From Acidobacteriota bacterium (GTDB lineage Bacteria > Aquificota > Aquificia > Aquificales > Aquificaceae), in NCBI GenBank assembly GCA_003696155.1, contig RFFP01000018.1, forward strand, positions 1 through 53,439: a stretch of 53,439 nucleotides of DNA, written 5' to 3'. A program made the translations under genes and the position numbers. Below the pieces are notes generated by a model that worked only from the letters and a program-made list of their open reading frames with translations, was not told the origin of the DNA and ran no database searches. Shown here in pieces: positions 3,357 through 41,514 of the stretch; within the stretch, counting starts at the first letter, position 1, and each line of letters opens with the position of its first letter.

Positions 3357-3676
3357 CTAAACACCGCCTCTATGATGGAAAGGAGTATGGATATGATGTT
3401 GGCAGCAAGGGCACCTATGGCAAGGCTAACGGCCTCACTGGTATCCCCCAAAAAGTATAGAAAGGCCGCAGGGACAAGATGAAGGTCTGCCACAAGGCTT
3501 GCTGCGGTCATCTCGGTAGCCAATATCTTACCCTCTCCAAGCTTAAGTATGGTAGCTGTTAGGTTGGTTATGACCGTTATGACAAGCTCGTAAGGGTTTG
3601 GTCCAAATATAAAGCTAATGTTTGTGGTAAGAGCCATGAGCAGGAAAAAGTCGGTCATTATCTTTTTGAGCCTCAT
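3338..3676 (-). CDS. small membrane protein linked to the K+ channel gene
   Basis: The 112-residue protein has about three hydrophobic segments and no charged catalytic motif. It resembles, from memory only, a family of short membrane proteins (DUF6394 type) encoded beside potassium channel genes in Aquificales and Campylobacterota. Its start overlaps the end of the channel gene by four bases, so the two are translationally coupled, and it may be an accessory subunit or share regulation. Its 3' end runs 19 bases into the convergent nucleotidyltransferase gene. Confidence 0.6.
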   Translation of the reverse strand: MRLKKIMTDFFLLMALTTNISFIFGPNPYELVITVITNLTATILKLGEGKILATEMTAASLVADLHLVPAAFLYFLGDTSEAVSLAIGALAANIISILLSIIEAVFSYLAEE

Positions 3677-4797
3677 ATGAGCACCTCCCTATAAAAGCCC
3701 ATAGCCTTTTTTATGCTAGAAGGTTTCCCAAGTAGTAAAAGCACATCACCAGCCTCAATCTGAGTTTCCCCAGAGACGGTAAGGTCCAAGGAGCCATCGG
3801 GCTTTCTTATGCCTATTACCGTAACGTTATAAAGCCTCCTTAGGTCTATCTCCTTTAGCCTTTTCCCTACAAGTTGGCTCTTATCGCTTACATAGAGTTC
3901 CACTATCTCAAGGTCAGCCTCCTCCCCATATGCAATACGGTCGAAAAGGTCAGAGACGTAGCCACTTGTCTCATGGATCATGTATGAAAATATCCTATTG
4001 GCTATAAGCTTGTCGGAAACTATAACCTTGTTGGCACCTAACTCTTCAAATTTCTGGGCTGTCCCCTCCGTGGGTGCGTTGGAGTATATGAAGAGCCCCT
4101 CTTTATCAGGTCTTAGAAGTCTTGCGGTAACTATAACCGCTATATTCTTTGCCTCATCCTCCATGTTAGCCACTAAATACCGTGCCTTCATTATGCCAGC
4201 GGATAGAAGGGTAGTCTTTTTGTAAGGTTCTTCGGCAATGAAATACTTTATGTTATGAAGTTGAACGTACTTTAGGGATTCCTCCTTTGAATCTATGATT
4301 ACAAAGTCTATCTTTCTCTTCCTTAGAGCATCTACAAGCCAAGCGGAGATGCGATTATAGCCACAGATGATAACATGGTCCTTTAACTTCTCTATATCCG
4401 ATAGCATTCTAATAACCCTTAGCATCTTTATTATATCCCCTACAAGAAAAATACGGACTACGACAGTAATAGCTGTAGTAAACATACCTATCCCCGCAAC
4501 TGCTAGAAAGGTGGTGAATATTCTACCTATGGGTGTATCCGTTCCCTTTGCTATCTCGCCAAAACCTATGGTGCCTATGGTTATCACCGTCATGTAGAGG
4601 GAATCTATGAAGTTGCCACCAGATAGAAACATATAGCCAAGGGTGCCAAAGCTCATGGAAGCGTGTATAAGTAGGAGGGGTATTCGGAGCTCCTTTAAGG
4701 ACTCTATGAACCTTTCCTGATAGACCTCCTTTAGGGTTTTTTGCCTTTTCTTGCGAAGAAGCTTTCTTCTTATGGTTTCTAAACGTCTTAACCTCAT
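3673..4797 (-). CDS. two-helix potassium channel with RCK (TrkA-N/TrkA-C) domains
   Basis: The product has 374 residues. A basic cytoplasmic leader (about 1-38) precedes the first membrane helix. The pore loop holds the selectivity filter TIGFG at 76-80, and the second helix ends near 120. From about 140 a Rossmann-type TrkA-N domain begins (VIICGYNRIS, then an acidic strand end near VIIDSKEES), and the last 80 residues form a TrkA-C domain. This is the MthK/Kch plan for a ligand-gated K+ channel in the inner membrane. The ATG overlaps the lptB stop by four bases, so the operon order is lptB, channel, small membrane protein. Confidence 0.92.
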   Translation of the reverse strand: MRLRRLETIRRKLLRKKRQKTLKEVYQERFIESLKELRIPLLLIHASMSFGTLGYMFLSGGNFIDSLYMTVITIGTIGFGEIAKGTDTPIGRIFTTFLAVAGIGMFTTAITVVVRIFLVGDIIKMLRVIRMLSDIEKLKDHVIICGYNRISAWLVDALRKRKIDFVIIDSKEESLKYVQLHNIKYFIAEEPYKKTTLLSAGIMKARYLVANMEDEAKNIAVIVTARLLRPDKEGLFIYSNAPTEGTAQKFEELGANKVIVSDKLIANRIFSYMIHETSGYVSDLFDRIAYGEEADLEIVELYVSDKSQLVGKRLKEIDLRRLYNVTVIGIRKPDGSLDLTVSGETQIEAGDVLLLLGKPSSIKKAMGFYREVLI

Positions 4798-34234: not shown

Positions 34235-34714
34235 CTATGTACACCTCATGCATATTATATCCCACTCTTCTATGTACTCCCTCATCTTCTCTATGGACTC
34301 TTTCCCATAGAGAAGGTCCTTTAGGTCCCTCTGGAGGTCTACAGGCTTCATCTTGACTATCCATCCTTCACCGTACGGGTCGTAGTTTATTATGTCAGGC
34401 TGTTCAAGAACCTTCTCGTTACGCTCTAGAACCTCACCTTCCACCAGTGCATTTATGGGTCCTGCCCATTTGCCGCTTTCCAAGGAAGCCACTGGCTTGC
34501 CCTTCTGTATGTGCTTGCCAGGATTTTTAATCCTTGCGTGCAGAAGCCTTCCTGCCCTTACTTGACCCACGTCGGTGAGACCCATGGTCACCGAACCATC
34601 TTCGTTGACCCTAAGCCAAGTCTGGGTCTCTATATCGTAGTAGAGGTCCAGGGGAACGACGCAGCCGTTATACTCCCATTCGTTCCCCGACTGCAGAATT
34701 TCTACTACCCCCAT
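34235..34714 (-). CDS. lbpA: lipoate-binding protein LbpA (GcvH-like), copy 1
   Basis: The 159-residue protein carries the lipoylation site ASLESGKWAGP (Lys82). As in copy 2 there is an N-terminal NGCVVPLDLYYDIE segment, so the NGCxxP motif is shared by both, unlike ordinary GcvH. The C-terminus ends CMRCT, with two cysteines. The two copies share the lipoyl core and the DDPYG/YDPYG-G-W segment but differ widely elsewhere, so they are old paralogues. It is 8 bases after hdrB2. Confidence 0.88.
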   Translation of the reverse strand: MGVVEILQSGNEWEYNGCVVPLDLYYDIETQTWLRVNEDGSVTMGLTDVGQVRAGRLLHARIKNPGKHIQKGKPVASLESGKWAGPINALVEGEVLERNEKVLEQPDIINYDPYGEGWIVKMKPVDLQRDLKDLLYGKESIEKMREYIEEWDIICMRCT

Positions 34715-34722
34715 ATAAACCC

Positions 34723-35682
34723 TCAGGCAAGCCCAAGTCTTTTCAGCACCGGCAATGGGTCTGAGAGGTTATCCTTGAGCTTCACATCGCCGGCACTGTA
34801 ACCAAAGGCAAGACCCAAAAGCTGTGTAAAGTAGGCTGCTGGCACATCCACATCGGGAACACCCTTTAGCATAAGCCTGTGCCTGTACATCTCAAGGGAG
34901 GCATGGCACAGAGGACACTCGGTGGCTATTATGTCCGCACCGTTGCGCTTTGCAGTCTGCAGTATCATCATCACAAACTTCTCGGAGACCATTTCGTCCG
35001 ACAAAGAATGAGGTCCACCGCAGCACTGGGTGTGCATGGGCTCAAACTCCACGTTGGTAGCCCCAGCAGCCTCTAAGAGGGCGTTCATGTAGTATGGGTG
35101 CTCGTCGTCATCTGCCGTATCCCTTTTCCTTGGTCTTGCCTCTTCATCTTGACCACCCGCATGGGCATAAGTTCTTGCGTAGAAGTGGGGTCTTGTGTAG
35201 AGACAACCATAGTAATTAGCTACCTTGAGACCTCTGAGAGGCTTTCTTGTCTTTTCCCTTACCTTCTGAGGACCAGCCTCGTGGTAGAACCACTCCAGTA
35301 TGTGGTAAGTATGGGGTATCTGGTCAAGGGCATCCACACCACCTTCCCTAAGGAGGGAGTTAACCTTGTCAAAAACTGCCCTGTCCGTCTCTAGGAAATA
35401 CTCGGCTCTCTGCAGAGAAAAGGAACATCCATTGCATGGAGCCACTATAACGCTATGCCCCTGCTTCCTTGCTAGGGACATGTTGCGGGCGTTTAGCAGC
35501 ATGGTGCCCATAAAGGTCACATTTTTTGATTCCATGGCACCACAGCAGTTGTAGTCCTCAAGATAGTCCAGCTCAAGGCCTAGCTCCTTTGCCACTATCT
35601 TTGTAGAAACATCGTAAGATCTGGCCGCACCCTCCAAGGAACAGCCAGGATAATATGCAACCCTTTTACCTATCACACCCAT
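34723..35682 (-). CDS. hdrB2: sHdrB2, CCG-domain subunit
   Basis: The 319-residue protein has two CCG (cysteine-rich) domains: YYPGCSLEGAARSYD...YNCCGAMESK and the second with HTQCCGGPH near 222-230 and ATECPLCHASL. These motifs bind the unusual noncubane 4Fe-4S clusters that act on disulfides in methanogen HdrB. In sHdr complexes, HdrB2 pairs with HdrC2. The Shine-Dalgarno TAAGGAGGT precedes ATG 35682. Confidence 0.9.
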   Translation of the reverse strand: MGVIGKRVAYYPGCSLEGAARSYDVSTKIVAKELGLELDYLEDYNCCGAMESKNVTFMGTMLLNARNMSLARKQGHSVIVAPCNGCSFSLQRAEYFLETDRAVFDKVNSLLREGGVDALDQIPHTYHILEWFYHEAGPQKVREKTRKPLRGLKVANYYGCLYTRPHFYARTYAHAGGQDEEARPRKRDTADDDEHPYYMNALLEAAGATNVEFEPMHTQCCGGPHSLSDEMVSEKFVMMILQTAKRNGADIIATECPLCHASLEMYRHRLMLKGVPDVDVPAAYFTQLLGLAFGYSAGDVKLKDNLSDPLPVLKRLGLA

Positions 35683-35693
35683 GTTAGACCTCC

Positions 35694-36452
35694 TTAATGT
35701 AATGCACCCTCTTCCTGCATCACCTTCCTAAGAACCTGTTTGAACTTACTCCAGTTTTTGGTCTTAGGATGGAAGAGCATATGCTTAGCGTTGAGTACAA
35801 GAAAGCCTATGTTCATACTCTTTATAGGCTTCATCACAAGGTCCTTTAGCCATTCTGGAGTTTCACCTACAAAAGGTATGGGCTTTTTGAGTATGGGGTC
35901 TTTGACTACGTTGTAGCCCTGCTTCTCTATCCATCCAAAGAGGAGCTCTCCGTCCTCTATCCTTCCGTACTCAAGGACAGACTCGGTGAAGAACTTATCA
36001 AACTTCTTGGAAGGGTATTCCTCTATGATTCCCCTTTTTGCCATCACCTTGAGAATAGCTTTTAGCACTTCCTCCACTAGCACACCCTTTGGGCACCTGT
36101 GGGTGCACTTGTGGCAGGAGACACACCTCCACATAACGTCCGCACGCTTTTGGAGTTCGTCTATCATTCCAAGCCTTGCAAGGTATATGAAGTGCCTTGG
36201 GTTGTATCTTTCGTCCCAGTAGTTGTGAACTGGGCAGGAGGCGGTGCAATAAGAGCACTGGTAGCATTGGTTTATGGTCTTGCCCTCGGGCTGACTCAGG
36301 ACATCCTTTCCAAAGTCCACATCGTAGTCGTTAATAACCCTGGGCATTATGATAAGGTTCCAGTCTCCGGAGACGTCAACCCCGTCGACAACCAACCTCT
36401 CTTTTCTTAATATTCTCTCCGGCTCTACAAGGCTTCTTTCGTGTATAGCCAT
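35694..36452 (-). CDS. hdrC2: sHdrC2, iron-sulfur subunit
   Basis: The 252-residue protein has two 4Fe-4S binding motifs: CYQCSYCTASCPVHNYW near 62-78 and CVSCHKCTHRCPKG near 109-122, typical of HdrC. It passes electrons between the HdrA flavoprotein and HdrB2. Spacing to the genes on each side is 11 and 3 bases, as expected for one transcript. Confidence 0.9.
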   Translation of the reverse strand: MAIHERSLVEPERILRKERLVVDGVDVSGDWNLIIMPRVINDYDVDFGKDVLSQPEGKTINQCYQCSYCTASCPVHNYWDERYNPRHFIYLARLGMIDELQKRADVMWRCVSCHKCTHRCPKGVLVEEVLKAILKVMAKRGIIEEYPSKKFDKFFTESVLEYGRIEDGELLFGWIEKQGYNVVKDPILKKPIPFVGETPEWLKDLVMKPIKSMNIGFLVLNAKHMLFHPKTKNWSKFKQVLRKVMQEEGALH

Positions 36453-36455
36453 CTC

Positions 36456-37190
36456 TTATACCTCCAAAAGATCTTCTTTTCTTAGCACACCCAAAAGCCT
36501 CCTGGCGGTAGAACCCGCAGGAGGGAAAAAGCCCTTAGCACTGTGCATGGTAGAGAGGGTCATATAATCTACGTAGGTGGCATATATCATAGCCAAGAAG
36601 ATGTCCACGAAGAGATAGCCCTTTACCTTTATACCAAAATCTAAGAGCTTCTCCTGGATCTGCTTATATATGGCTTCAAACTCTTCGTAAGTCTCTCCGT
36701 ACATGCTCCTCTTTGGTGGCTCTTCCTTTAGGAAGACCACAGCTCCGCTCTCGCTTTCCGGGTCCCATATCCAGCTTGTCCAGAGTACGTACTCTTCAGG
36801 GAAGGTAAAGTGGAGTATCTCCGAGGCCATATCTCTCGCAGCCTTTTTGTCTACACCTCTTATTTCCCTTACAAACCTTTCTACCCTCTCCTCCCAGCTT
36901 CTGGCCTTACCGTAGAGCAGGTCGCTTATTGCCCTCTTAAGTCTGTCCACGCCAGTTTCTTCTATAACCCTTTTCCTCTGCCTTCTTGTTGAAAATATCT
37001 TTTCTAGCAGAAGGTCTAGGTCCTCCTCTGTGAGGGAAGGTAGCCTCTCCTTGCTGAAAGCCTGCTGAAAGAGGAGGGACTTGGCGAGGAGGTCCTTGTA
37101 AAAATCTTGGACAAAGTCCTCGCCTTCACCCAGTATCTTTATAAGGTAATCCCTCACCAAAAAGTCATCCAAAATCACAGGCTTTTTCAT
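36456..37190 (-). CDS. conserved 'hyp' protein of the sHdr cluster
   Basis: ATG 37190 (MKKPVILDDFLVRDYLIKIL) overlaps the hdrA stop by four bases; a longer frame up to 37283 would lie in hdrA. The 244-residue product is soluble, mostly helical, with TRRQRKRV and WDPESESGAVVFL segments and no Cys or cofactor motif. A gene of this kind lies between hdrA and hdrC2 in sHdr clusters of bacteria and archaea, so position identifies it; the function is unknown. It may be a structural or assembly subunit. Confidence 0.8.
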   Translation of the reverse strand: MKKPVILDDFLVRDYLIKILGEGEDFVQDFYKDLLAKSLLFQQAFSKERLPSLTEEDLDLLLEKIFSTRRQRKRVIEETGVDRLKRAISDLLYGKARSWEERVERFVREIRGVDKKAARDMASEILHFTFPEEYVLWTSWIWDPESESGAVVFLKEEPPKRSMYGETYEEFEAIYKQIQEKLLDFGIKVKGYLFVDIFLAMIYATYVDYMTLSTMHSAKGFFPPAGSTARRLLGVLRKEDLLEV

Positions 37191-38242
37191 ACGGTCACCT
37201 TTGCACCTAAGAAGGCTGCAGCTTCTGCTGCGGCAGCTTCCCCTTCGGAGAAGGAAGACTCTATGTCTATAGGACCCTTGCATGCACCAGCTATGAATAT
37301 GCCTGGCTTGTTGGATACTATGTTAGAACCTGACTCATCAGAAGGCACCAAAAACTGGCTGTCTGGGTCTTGAGCAAGGCCAAGTATCTTAGCTACCTTC
37401 TTGGTACCTGGGGATGGCTCCATGCCAAGCACAAGAACCACAAGGTCCATGGGAACCTCCGCAGGCCTTTGAACTATGGTGTCTTCGTGTTTGACCCTGA
37501 GCCTACCATCTGCGGGGCTGTAGGTAATTTCTGCTATTCTACCACGTACGTACCTAACGCCGTACTGCTCTTGTGGTGCCCAGTAGAATGGGTACTCCCA
37601 TGTTCCGTAGGTTCTCACATCCATGTAGTAGCAGAAAACATCCACATCGGGATAATGCTCCCTTATTTCAGAGCCCTGAAGACCAGAAAGAGCGCATCCG
37701 TACCTGCAGCAGTGCACGTTGGTCACTCCGAGCTGTCTATCTCTTGATCCCACGCAGAAGACAAAGGCTACCCTTTTGGGAAGCTGCCCGTTGGAAGGCC
37801 TATAGAGCTTGCCCTCAACGGAGAACATCCTCTCCAGTTCAAGGTTTGTTATAACGTCTGGGTAGAGCCCATAGCCCAGCTCACCCTTTCTCCTTGGGTC
37901 AAAGTGCTCAAAGCCGGTGGCAACAACTATGGCGCCTACGTTGTACTTTTCACCGTTGGAAAGGGTTACCTTAAAGTCTCCAGGTTCACCCTCACAAGCT
38001 GTCAGTTCGGTGTTTAGTAGCACCTTTACATTGGGGTTTTGTTCTACGTCCTTTATGTAAGGACCAATCACCTGGGAGGGTTTTAGCTTTCTGGGGATGA
38101 GGGTGTGGTAGTTGTTCTTAATAGGGTTCCCACCCAGCTGACCATCCTTCTCCACAAGCACTGTGGAGACACCAAGCCTTCCCAAAGCTCTGGCTGCCGC
38201 AATCCCTGCGGGACCACCTCCTACTACAAGCACACTCTTCAT
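37187..38242 (-). CDS. hdrA: sHdrA, FAD-dependent disulfide-type reductase subunit
   Basis: The 351-residue protein begins with VLVVGGGPAGIAAARALG, an FAD-binding Rossmann loop, and has ATGFEHFD near 110 and FIAGACKGPIDIE near 317, the second nucleotide-binding part. It is the short sHdrA form without the thioredoxin-reductase insert and ferredoxin domains of methanogen HdrA; it has FVCVGSRD and the CCRYGC cysteine motif. In the complex it is the flavin centre of sulfur oxidation. Confidence 0.9.
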   Translation of the reverse strand: MKSVLVVGGGPAGIAAARALGRLGVSTVLVEKDGQLGGNPIKNNYHTLIPRKLKPSQVIGPYIKDVEQNPNVKVLLNTELTACEGEPGDFKVTLSNGEKYNVGAIVVATGFEHFDPRRKGELGYGLYPDVITNLELERMFSVEGKLYRPSNGQLPKRVAFVFCVGSRDRQLGVTNVHCCRYGCALSGLQGSEIREHYPDVDVFCYYMDVRTYGTWEYPFYWAPQEQYGVRYVRGRIAEITYSPADGRLRVKHEDTIVQRPAEVPMDLVVLVLGMEPSPGTKKVAKILGLAQDPDSQFLVPSDESGSNIVSNKPGIFIAGACKGPIDIESSFSEGEAAAAEAAAFLGAKVTV

Positions 38243-38293: not shown

Positions 38294-39649
38294 TTAGGAT
38301 TTGAACAGCGGCATGTTGGCAGTTGCAGAAGCCTTAGGCTTTCCTGTGGATGTCCTGCTGTAGGGCTCATAAAGGTCATACTCCTTGAAGAACTCCATGA
38401 GCTCATCGTACTTGCCGGCTTTCTCAAGGTCCGCTATGTACTTGACTGTGTCTTCCCACTCTTTACGGAGCTCTCTCCAGTTGGTTATACCCATCTTCTC
38501 AAGGAGAGGCTCATAGGCAGAGCAGTTCCAATAAAGCTGGATAACCTTAAAGGGATGAGCACCGCACGCAAGGGCTGAGAACATAACATCGGACATAACT
38601 GCCACAGGGTAGTACATGCCGTGAGCCTTACCTATCCACTGGTTCTTTTCAAAGGTTGTAGTGCAACCCGTATCATGGGTAACTATGAGGTCTGCCTTTA
38701 CCTCTTCGTATATGACCTTTAGCTTCCTCTGTATAGCAAAGGAGCGTGTAAACTCCCTCTCGGTGAGTATGTGCCTAAAGCCAAAACCACAGCAATCAAA
38801 CCAAGTGGAGTAGTCAACCACCTGAGCGCCAAGAGCCTTGACTACAGCGGTGGAAGCTGCGGGCCTTTGGCCGTTGAATACCTCAGGGTCGTAAGGATAG
38901 TCGTCCGCTATCATCTTGTAGGTGTGGCAGGCGTTATGTATTGCAACCCTGACGTTGGACACGTCTATACCCTTGGGTTTGCCCTCCTTCTGGTAGAGGT
39001 CAGCTATCCTGTACCTCATGGCGTGGACCCACTCGGAATAGTGGACAACCTCTTGGGGCACTACTATTCTTCCGTCTTCTGTAAGCCTTCCGAGCTTTTT
39101 GAGTATGGGCTTTACAGCATCGCGGAGCTCCTTGTTCATTATGAGCTGTTCCCTGGTCTCTTTGTAGGAGCCAAAGGAGGTTCCACAGTGTATGAGGGGG
39201 TAGTAGCCAGTTTTCCATGCTTGGTGCATGTTTCTGAGCCAGACAGCTGCCAAAGCGACAGGGTTAGATGTGCCAGAGCCGTGGTAATTCCATGCGGTGC
39301 AGGAGGTTTGGTGGGGCTCATTAAGATAGTCAAGACCAAACTTGTTCATAAACCAGAAAACCGCAGCTGGATATCCTGGTATATTTCCACACTGACCACA
39401 GGACTTGTGATGCCAGAGCTTGTTAGTAGGTATGGTCTTTATCCTTCCGGTCCTCGTGAAGACCTCAACGGGCTGATGTTCCTCCGTAATCCTGTGTATA
39501 AGAATCTCACCTTTTGCTTCGAGCTCCTCCATCATCTCGAAGATATGGTCATAATGGGCGCTGTACTCTTTAAGGGCAAAAGGTGGCTCTTCTGGATATC
39601 TCAGAAGACCTCCTGGGCTGTTATGTCCAAAGCCGTGCTTGTGTGCCAT
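38294..39649 (-). CDS. hdrB1: sHdrB1, CCG-domain subunit
   Basis: The 451-residue protein is longer than HdrB2. Cysteine sets are at SCGQCGNIPG near 83-92, HNACHTYK near 237, FDCCGFGFRH near 285 and HDTGCTTTFEK near 325, the latter forming a CCG-type cluster site. In sHdr complexes, HdrB1 pairs with HdrC1 on the opposite half of the complex. The Shine-Dalgarno AAGGAGGTGTAATC lies before the ATG. The gap to hdrC1 is 48 bases. Confidence 0.9.
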   Translation of the reverse strand: MAHKHGFGHNSPGGLLRYPEEPPFALKEYSAHYDHIFEMMEELEAKGEILIHRITEEHQPVEVFTRTGRIKTIPTNKLWHHKSCGQCGNIPGYPAAVFWFMNKFGLDYLNEPHQTSCTAWNYHGSGTSNPVALAAVWLRNMHQAWKTGYYPLIHCGTSFGSYKETREQLIMNKELRDAVKPILKKLGRLTEDGRIVVPQEVVHYSEWVHAMRYRIADLYQKEGKPKGIDVSNVRVAIHNACHTYKMIADDYPYDPEVFNGQRPAASTAVVKALGAQVVDYSTWFDCCGFGFRHILTEREFTRSFAIQRKLKVIYEEVKADLIVTHDTGCTTTFEKNQWIGKAHGMYYPVAVMSDVMFSALACGAHPFKVIQLYWNCSAYEPLLEKMGITNWRELRKEWEDTVKYIADLEKAGKYDELMEFFKEYDLYEPYSRTSTGKPKASATANMPLFKS

Positions 39650-39697
39650 GATTACACCTCCTTAGTTTTCTTCTGGGGTACAATCCCCCTTGTTAGC

Positions 39698-40425
39698 TCA
39701 CTCTTCCTCTTCATAGAGTTCCTCGTAGCGCTCCTCGTTCTCCTCCACTATATCCATTATGACGTTGTATAGGTTGGGGTCGAGCTTTTCAAGCATCTCG
39801 AAGATACCCGTCTCTCTCCATATGGTGTACATCTCTATGGCAGTCTCCAGAGAAACTTCCCAAGCGGTCTTTACCGATTTGCCTACATCAAAGGGTATGG
39901 CAAGCCTCTTAGCCCTTAGGTTTTCCATATTGTCAGCCATCTTGGGTCCCCAGTCAGGGAAGAAGTCAGGCTGGAGCATGTCCGCAGATAGCTGGTTTCC
40001 TGTGGTCATAACCTTGAGCAGAACCCTTCCGTAAGGCTTGAGTAGGTCCTTGGTTGCCTCAAAGGCGTTACGAACTGCCACCTCTCTCATTATGGCCACA
40101 AGACCACCCGGGTTGTTTACAAAGGGACACCTTATCCAACAGGTGAAGCACTGGGAGCATGCCCATATGTACTCGTGCATCATATCGTAGAGGACCTCAA
40201 CGTCCTCTTCTAAGAACCTTTGAACTATCTCCCTTGGGGAATAGTCAAAGAACCTGTTGGAGGGGCAGGAGGCAGTGCATACCCCACAGTTTAAACAGCC
40301 AAAGATGTATTCCTTAAAACGAAAGTCAGACTTACCTCCTCCACTATCCTGACCTTTTCTTCCCAAGGCACGACCTTGGTCTTTTCGGATATGGGAAGGT
40401 TGTATCCGTATATGTGTCCTTCCAT
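39698..40425 (-). CDS. hdrC1: sHdrC1, iron-sulfur subunit, apparent frameshift near the 5' end
   Basis: The body (from about 40320) has two 4Fe-4S motifs, CLNCGVCTASCP near the start and CSQCFTCWIRCP further on, in the order seen for HdrC1. That frame is open only to 40366, where it starts with TTG and no Shine-Dalgarno. Just upstream, ATG 40425 with GGAGGTATAGCT reads MEGHIYGYNLPISEKTKVV and PWEEKVRIVEE in another frame, which looks like the natural N-terminus. One added G in GGAGGAGGTAAG near 40335 would join them. Hence either a true one-base deletion or a sequence error. The gene is first in the sHdr operon. Confidence 0.85.
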
Positions 40426-40980: not shown

Positions 40981-41514
40981 TCAAACGAATATTATCATGG
41001 GTTTATCAGCTTCTGTTACGTAATTGATAAAGGTTGCTGCACCTGCCGGTGGCTCAAGCCCATCTATCAGGTCTTCATACTTGTAACCAAAGAGTTCCAT
41101 GGTCATCTGGCAGGGGATGAGCTTTACATCAGCCTCCTTGCATGCCTCTAAGAGCTCGGGTATACTTGCCACACCATGCTCCTTTATAGTCTTCTTCATC
41201 ATAAAGCTCATAAGGTCCGTCATGCCGGGAATTATACCCATTATCTGCGGCGGGCCTGGCAGCACAGAGGATATAGTGTTGGTTATAGGATTCTGCATGG
41301 ATGGCGGGAAAGCCATTGGCATGGCAGGGTTTCCAACAGGTGCTATCTTAAGTTCGTTTACCTTCTTCTTGTGTACTATGTTAAGGCCGTAGAAGGTAAA
41401 GAATACAGCCGCCTCTATGCCCAAAGATGCAGCGGTGGAAGCCAGTATAAGCGGCGGATAAGCCATATCTAAGGTACCCTTTGTGGCTATTATGGCAAGC
41501 CTTTCTGTAGCCAT
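40981..41514 (-). CDS. DsrE/DsrF-like sulfur carrier, DsrE3A type
   Basis: The 177-residue protein has the longer DsrE plan: RLAIIATKGTLDMAYPPLILAS at the start, a hydrophobic Pro/Met-rich insert (about 60-100), and KLIPCQMTMELFG with Cys135; a further Cys at 125. DsrE3A with TusA and rhodanese delivers sulfane sulfur to sHdr in sulfur oxidisers. No rhodanese gene is in the window. Start ATG 41514 is 12 bases after tusA. Confidence 0.83.
   Translation of the reverse strand: MATERLAIIATKGTLDMAYPPLILASTAASLGIEAAVFFTFYGLNIVHKKKVNELKIAPVGNPAMPMAFPPSMQNPITNTISSVLPGPPQIMGIIPGMTDLMSFMMKKTIKEHGVASIPELLEACKEADVKLIPCQMTMELFGYKYEDLIDGLEPPAGAATFINYVTEADKPMIIFV

Follow-up and report, generated by a model that had tools for sequence, protein, structure and literature searches.

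The genes hdrC1B1A-hyp-hdrC2B2, accompanied by lbpA, make up the sHdr (heterodisulfide-reductase-like sulfur oxidation) operon of sulfur-oxidizing prokaryotes, and the Aquificae carry its Group I arrangement (PMC6067878). For the genetics of the system, that article refers to Koch & Dahl 2018. The window analyzed here is a stretch of 53,439 nucleotides from the assembled genome of a hot-spring member of the Aquificaceae (GCA_003696155.1, contig RFFP01000018.1). On its minus strand, the same subunits are encoded in the same gene order (hdrC1-hdrB1-hdrA-hyp-hdrC2-hdrB2) with lbpA nearby, which identifies an ordinary sHdr operon, hdrC1-B1-A-hyp-C2-B2-lbpA. The operon itself is well known, and its sole departure from the described system is that hdrC1, and only this gene, is one base short in the assembly. 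All other operon genes were open, in line with the original prediction: hdrB1 (38294..39649, 451 amino acids), the gene for an HdrA-like subunit (37187..38242), the hyp gene (36456..37283), whose start probably lies inside the ORF and which has an orthologue at the locus of Thermocrinis sp. Bin P10 described below, hdrC2 (35694..36452), hdrB2 (34723..35682) and the gene for a GcvH-like lipoate-binding protein, the LbpA candidate (34235..34714). Upstream of hdrC1, a DsrE-family sulfur carrier gene (40981..41514, minus strand) was also intact; its match to NF047629 had an E-value of 7e-55 and fell under the curated cut-off. A 333-amino acid open frame on the plus strand (38771-39772), which runs opposite hdrB1 and the last part of hdrC1, is probably a shadow of codon bias.

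The broken reading frame of hdrC1

The 5' end of hdrC1 reads TTCGGAGGTATAGCTATGG on the minus strand, where a Shine-Dalgarno-like GGAGG is followed by ATG 40425. The frame opened by this ATG encodes MEGHIYGYNLPISEKTKVVPWEEKVRIVEEV, then SLTFVLRNTSLAV, and stops after 44 codons at a TAA (40293-40291). This piece (40291..40425) consists of 31 conserved codons, whose residues align with all intact relatives, followed by 13 out-of-frame codons and the stop. The two 4Fe-4S cysteine motifs by which HdrC1 is recognized, CLNCGVCTASCP and CSQCFTCWIRCP, lie in a frame shifted by one base. That frame forms a 222-amino acid ORF from TTG 40366 to 39698, is open only from this TTG, and exceeds the Pfam cut-offs of both Fer4_8 and Fer4_17. 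The gene resumes in it from 40333, and the remainder (39698..40333, minus strand) comprises 211 codons and the stop. Hence, the single open frame from start to stop that was present in 46 relatives is missing from the window. Reading the ORFs of the minus strand confirmed that the frame break is genuinely present in the assembled sequence and that, as first proposed, the ATG 40425 frame does not continue into the cysteine frame. The break is beyond chance because the N-terminal piece and the 211 later residues match relatives in two different frames, and because hdrC1 was the sole ordinary gene with such a break among about 795 tested.

We searched 64 Aquificaceae genomes with an intact HdrC1 protein. 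Counted from the individual matches, 46 of them carried an uninterrupted, full-length hdrC1 beginning at an ATG equivalent to 40425, out of 49 genomes in which the gene is not at a contig edge. The internal interruptions were those of the window's genome and of two others (G041 and G074), and the remaining partial matches were located close to contig ends or directly at them. A one-frame hdrC1 from the equivalent ATG was likewise present in most further genomes of the collection. In relatives, the N-terminus follows the pattern MxGHxYGYNxPISEKT...EEVKSDFR and runs on in one frame into the cysteine motifs. Many residues of YGYN...S..T..VP..EK.R..EE...DFR were invariant among the 26 distinct peptides from 56 fetched loci, which came from overlapping sets. 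In the first search set, homologues of the 222-amino acid ORF matched it only from residue 12 (window position 40333), over about 211 amino acids and with 91-100% identity.

This alignment with the HdrC1 of relatives supported the break and refined its position, which had been well placed at about 40330-40340, to 40335-40331. The window reads GTAAG there (40331..40335, minus strand), that is, GTA then AG, where intact genes have a GTN or ATA codon followed by AAA or AAG, with a single GTT-CGC (thus one Arg instead of Lys). Since relatives show a whole lysine codon after the valine or isoleucine, the shortfall lies, by codon comparison, in the A run of the conserved lysine codon 40333-40331, without involvement of the G run; in relatives this A run measures just three bases. 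The additional G originally suggested at GGAGGAGG would indeed join the two frames; however, it would yield glycine where all relatives have valine or isoleucine.

Possible translation across the break

A gene broken in this way could still be functional through a ribosomal -1 frameshift or through initiation at TTG 40366, although we regard such a rescue as quite improbable. The cysteine frame is open throughout the overlap of the two frames, which contains two A-AAG tetramers (40384 and 40357). The overlap nonetheless held no X-XXY-YYZ slippery heptamer, and no stable structure was seen in the downstream RNA, which folded less stably than shuffled sequences (z = +1.73), with 196 of 200 shuffles at least as stable. 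The break was also not conserved in relatives. With neither heptamer nor structure nor conservation, we rejected a programmed frameshift. As for the TTG (40364..40366, minus strand), it is the sole ATG, GTG or TTG in the cysteine frame before the first cysteine motif. The only signal upstream of it is an AAGG located 7 nt before, and the N-terminus that it would provide is unconserved and would replace the entire YGYN...EEVKSDFR region, many residues of which are invariant in the 26 distinct sequences. Relatives showed neither a frameshift nor a start there: a start near 40366 was looked for and seen in none of them in the 64-genome search. Of the three explanations initially offered, the internal start was therefore dropped, because in all 46 complete relatives the gene begins at the counterpart of 40425 and its N-terminus is conserved, whereas an assembly error and a recent mutation were both retained. 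Nor was a second copy of hdrC1 found in the whole genome, in which hdrC2 is a distant paralogue (34% identity over 83 amino acids). Rescue of hdrC1 is thus unlikely.

Frame breaks in the genome and in related sHdr operons

The background rate of such breaks was estimated by comparing, in both directions, 1.08 Mb of the 1.47-Mb genome that contains the window with 1.60 Mb of the one-contig genome of a same-genus relative (G006). Among 795 reading frames of the relative that matched the window's genome well, a frame-break signal appeared in nine. Eight were inspected and hdrC1 alone remained, the others being open frames that extend over tRNA genes, or over upstream sequence that is non-coding or antisense, so an error-rich assembly was rejected. 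The ninth, a multiply broken locus in L202, is probably a decayed mobile element. With the comparison reversed, G006 showed one clear break and perhaps a second. Because even this finished relative shows one or two, an isolated break per genome is ordinary. The clear break of G006 is a frame shift in the orthologue (G006:C1:1559840) of window 3673-4797, potassium-channel-like by eye, and the window gene was intact. We also considered whether two related strains had been joined into a chimera at the hdrC1 break and found no sign of this, both pieces being comparably distant from every relative examined.

Other Aquificaceae assemblies also had sporadic breaks in their sHdr genes. In hdrB1, one two-contig genome (G016) had two frame shifts that compensate each other across a stretch of about 75 residues (L020, G016:C1:267033-268370), which look like sequencing errors, and another (G070) had one TAG. 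The hdrB2 gene was split in G068 and carried one TGA in G074, and hdrC1 had an internal break in G041. In the metagenome-assembled genome Aquifex aeolicus SZUA-1413 (L064, DQTK01000141.1), the third codon of hdrC1 was TAA, and the frame shifted after about 120 residues. Finally, in Thermocrinis sp. Bin P10 (L065:7590-7990, JAJHRQ010000008.1), which, given the matching pattern, is probably G074, roughly 400 bp replaced hdrC1 residues about 36-131, including both cysteine motifs. The replacement had weak antisense similarity to an IS6 transposase (E-value of 0.0035), and hdrB2 at this locus was also cut by a stop; the Bin P10 hdrC1 may represent a natural inactivation or a misassembly. Like the break in the window, those of G016, G070, G068, G074 and G041 are isolated in otherwise intact, conserved genes, but they affect other genes and positions. 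With no common site, there is no shared programmed mechanism. By number of genomes, breaks affected hdrC1 in three, hdrB1 in two and hdrB2 in two; hdrC1 therefore shows no clear excess of breaks over its neighbours, and the sporadic breaks fit an ordinary background. Repeated, recent loss of hdrC1 in hydrogen-living Aquificaceae (the window's genome and Bin P10), with sHdr switched off through its first gene, appears most improbable.

Three same-genus drafts (G004, G008 and G009) gave only partial hdrB1 matches, with apparent breaks inside hdrC1 or hdrB1; co-occurring strains perhaps confuse assembly at hdrC1-hdrB1 in these genomes. We rejected a recurrent loss of hdrC1 in G004 and G008, as their partial hdrB1 matches are consistent with contig breaks. 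In G004, codons 1-19 of hdrC1 lie at the start of one contig (C9), and hdrB1 continues from the start of another (C13).

Assembly error or recent mutation

The 211 residues past the break were 100% identical to those of two same-genus relatives (G006 and G012). Over 210 codons of this part, the window differed from either one by 0 amino acids and 78-88 synonymous codon changes; hdrC1 therefore cannot have been unconstrained for long. Three other same-genus relatives had 1-2 amino acid differences from the window downstream of the break. We obtained a dN of about 0.006, a dS of 1.1-1.8 (1.2-1.8 against G006 and G012) and a dN/dS of about 0.005 for this part. Without constraint on hdrC1, the window's own half-branch should have gathered about 275-460 non-synonymous changes. 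Any unconstrained period would accordingly cover at most about 1% of that half-branch, a zero-count bound that is rough given a dS near saturation; we consider the conclusion robust to this. Disabling or non-synonymous changes as in a decaying pseudogene had not accumulated past the break, with 0-2 differences from five relatives.

We consider it rather likely that the one-base deletion arose as an error of the consensus or assembly. The living cell would then have the base and make an ordinary HdrC1 of 242 amino acids, which, judging by its family, would serve the sHdr complex as an iron-sulfur subunit for electron transfer. An error is favoured because the same ATG opens a single unbroken frame in 46 Aquificaceae genomes, because the complete amino acid identity with G006 and G012 limits any relaxed period, and because the sole clear break hits a highly constrained gene in an otherwise undecayed operon. 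Indeed, an error can strike any gene, important or not, whereas weakly constrained genes should be the preferred site of real losses. Within the family, other sHdr genes also carry isolated breaks, in metagenome-assembled genomes too. On the other hand, the assembly is otherwise nearly without frame breaks, a run of three A is hardly a difficult homopolymer, and a genuine one-off mutation would look identical.

A genuine deletion of one base, very recent and either fixed or segregating in the sampled population, is a possible but less likely reading. It would inactivate hdrC1 and probably the sHdr pathway, leaving the cell to live on H2. Genes resembling the large subunit of NiFe hydrogenases were present at several places in the genome, with two strong full-length matches; another electron donor is therefore plausible and sulfur oxidation may be dispensable. 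In the absence of a second hdrC1 copy, the loss would be real, and Bin P10 would provide a second natural inactivation unless its locus is an assembly fault. However, a dN/dS near 0.005 without further decay demands an extremely young event. In addition, hdrC1 is intact in nearly all genomes where it lies away from contig edges, and the only clear break found affects a gene that is among the most conserved. Overall, the most likely cause of the break is a consensus error or, failing that, a single mutation that arose very recently, rather than a new kind of gene or of translation.

These results chiefly call for caution. Automatic annotation would either mark hdrC1 as a pseudogene or place its start at TTG 40366, and in pathway surveys this organism could count as lacking complete sulfur oxidation, although the pathway is probably complete. 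If the mutation is real, the window would capture the earliest stage in the loss of a central energy pathway.
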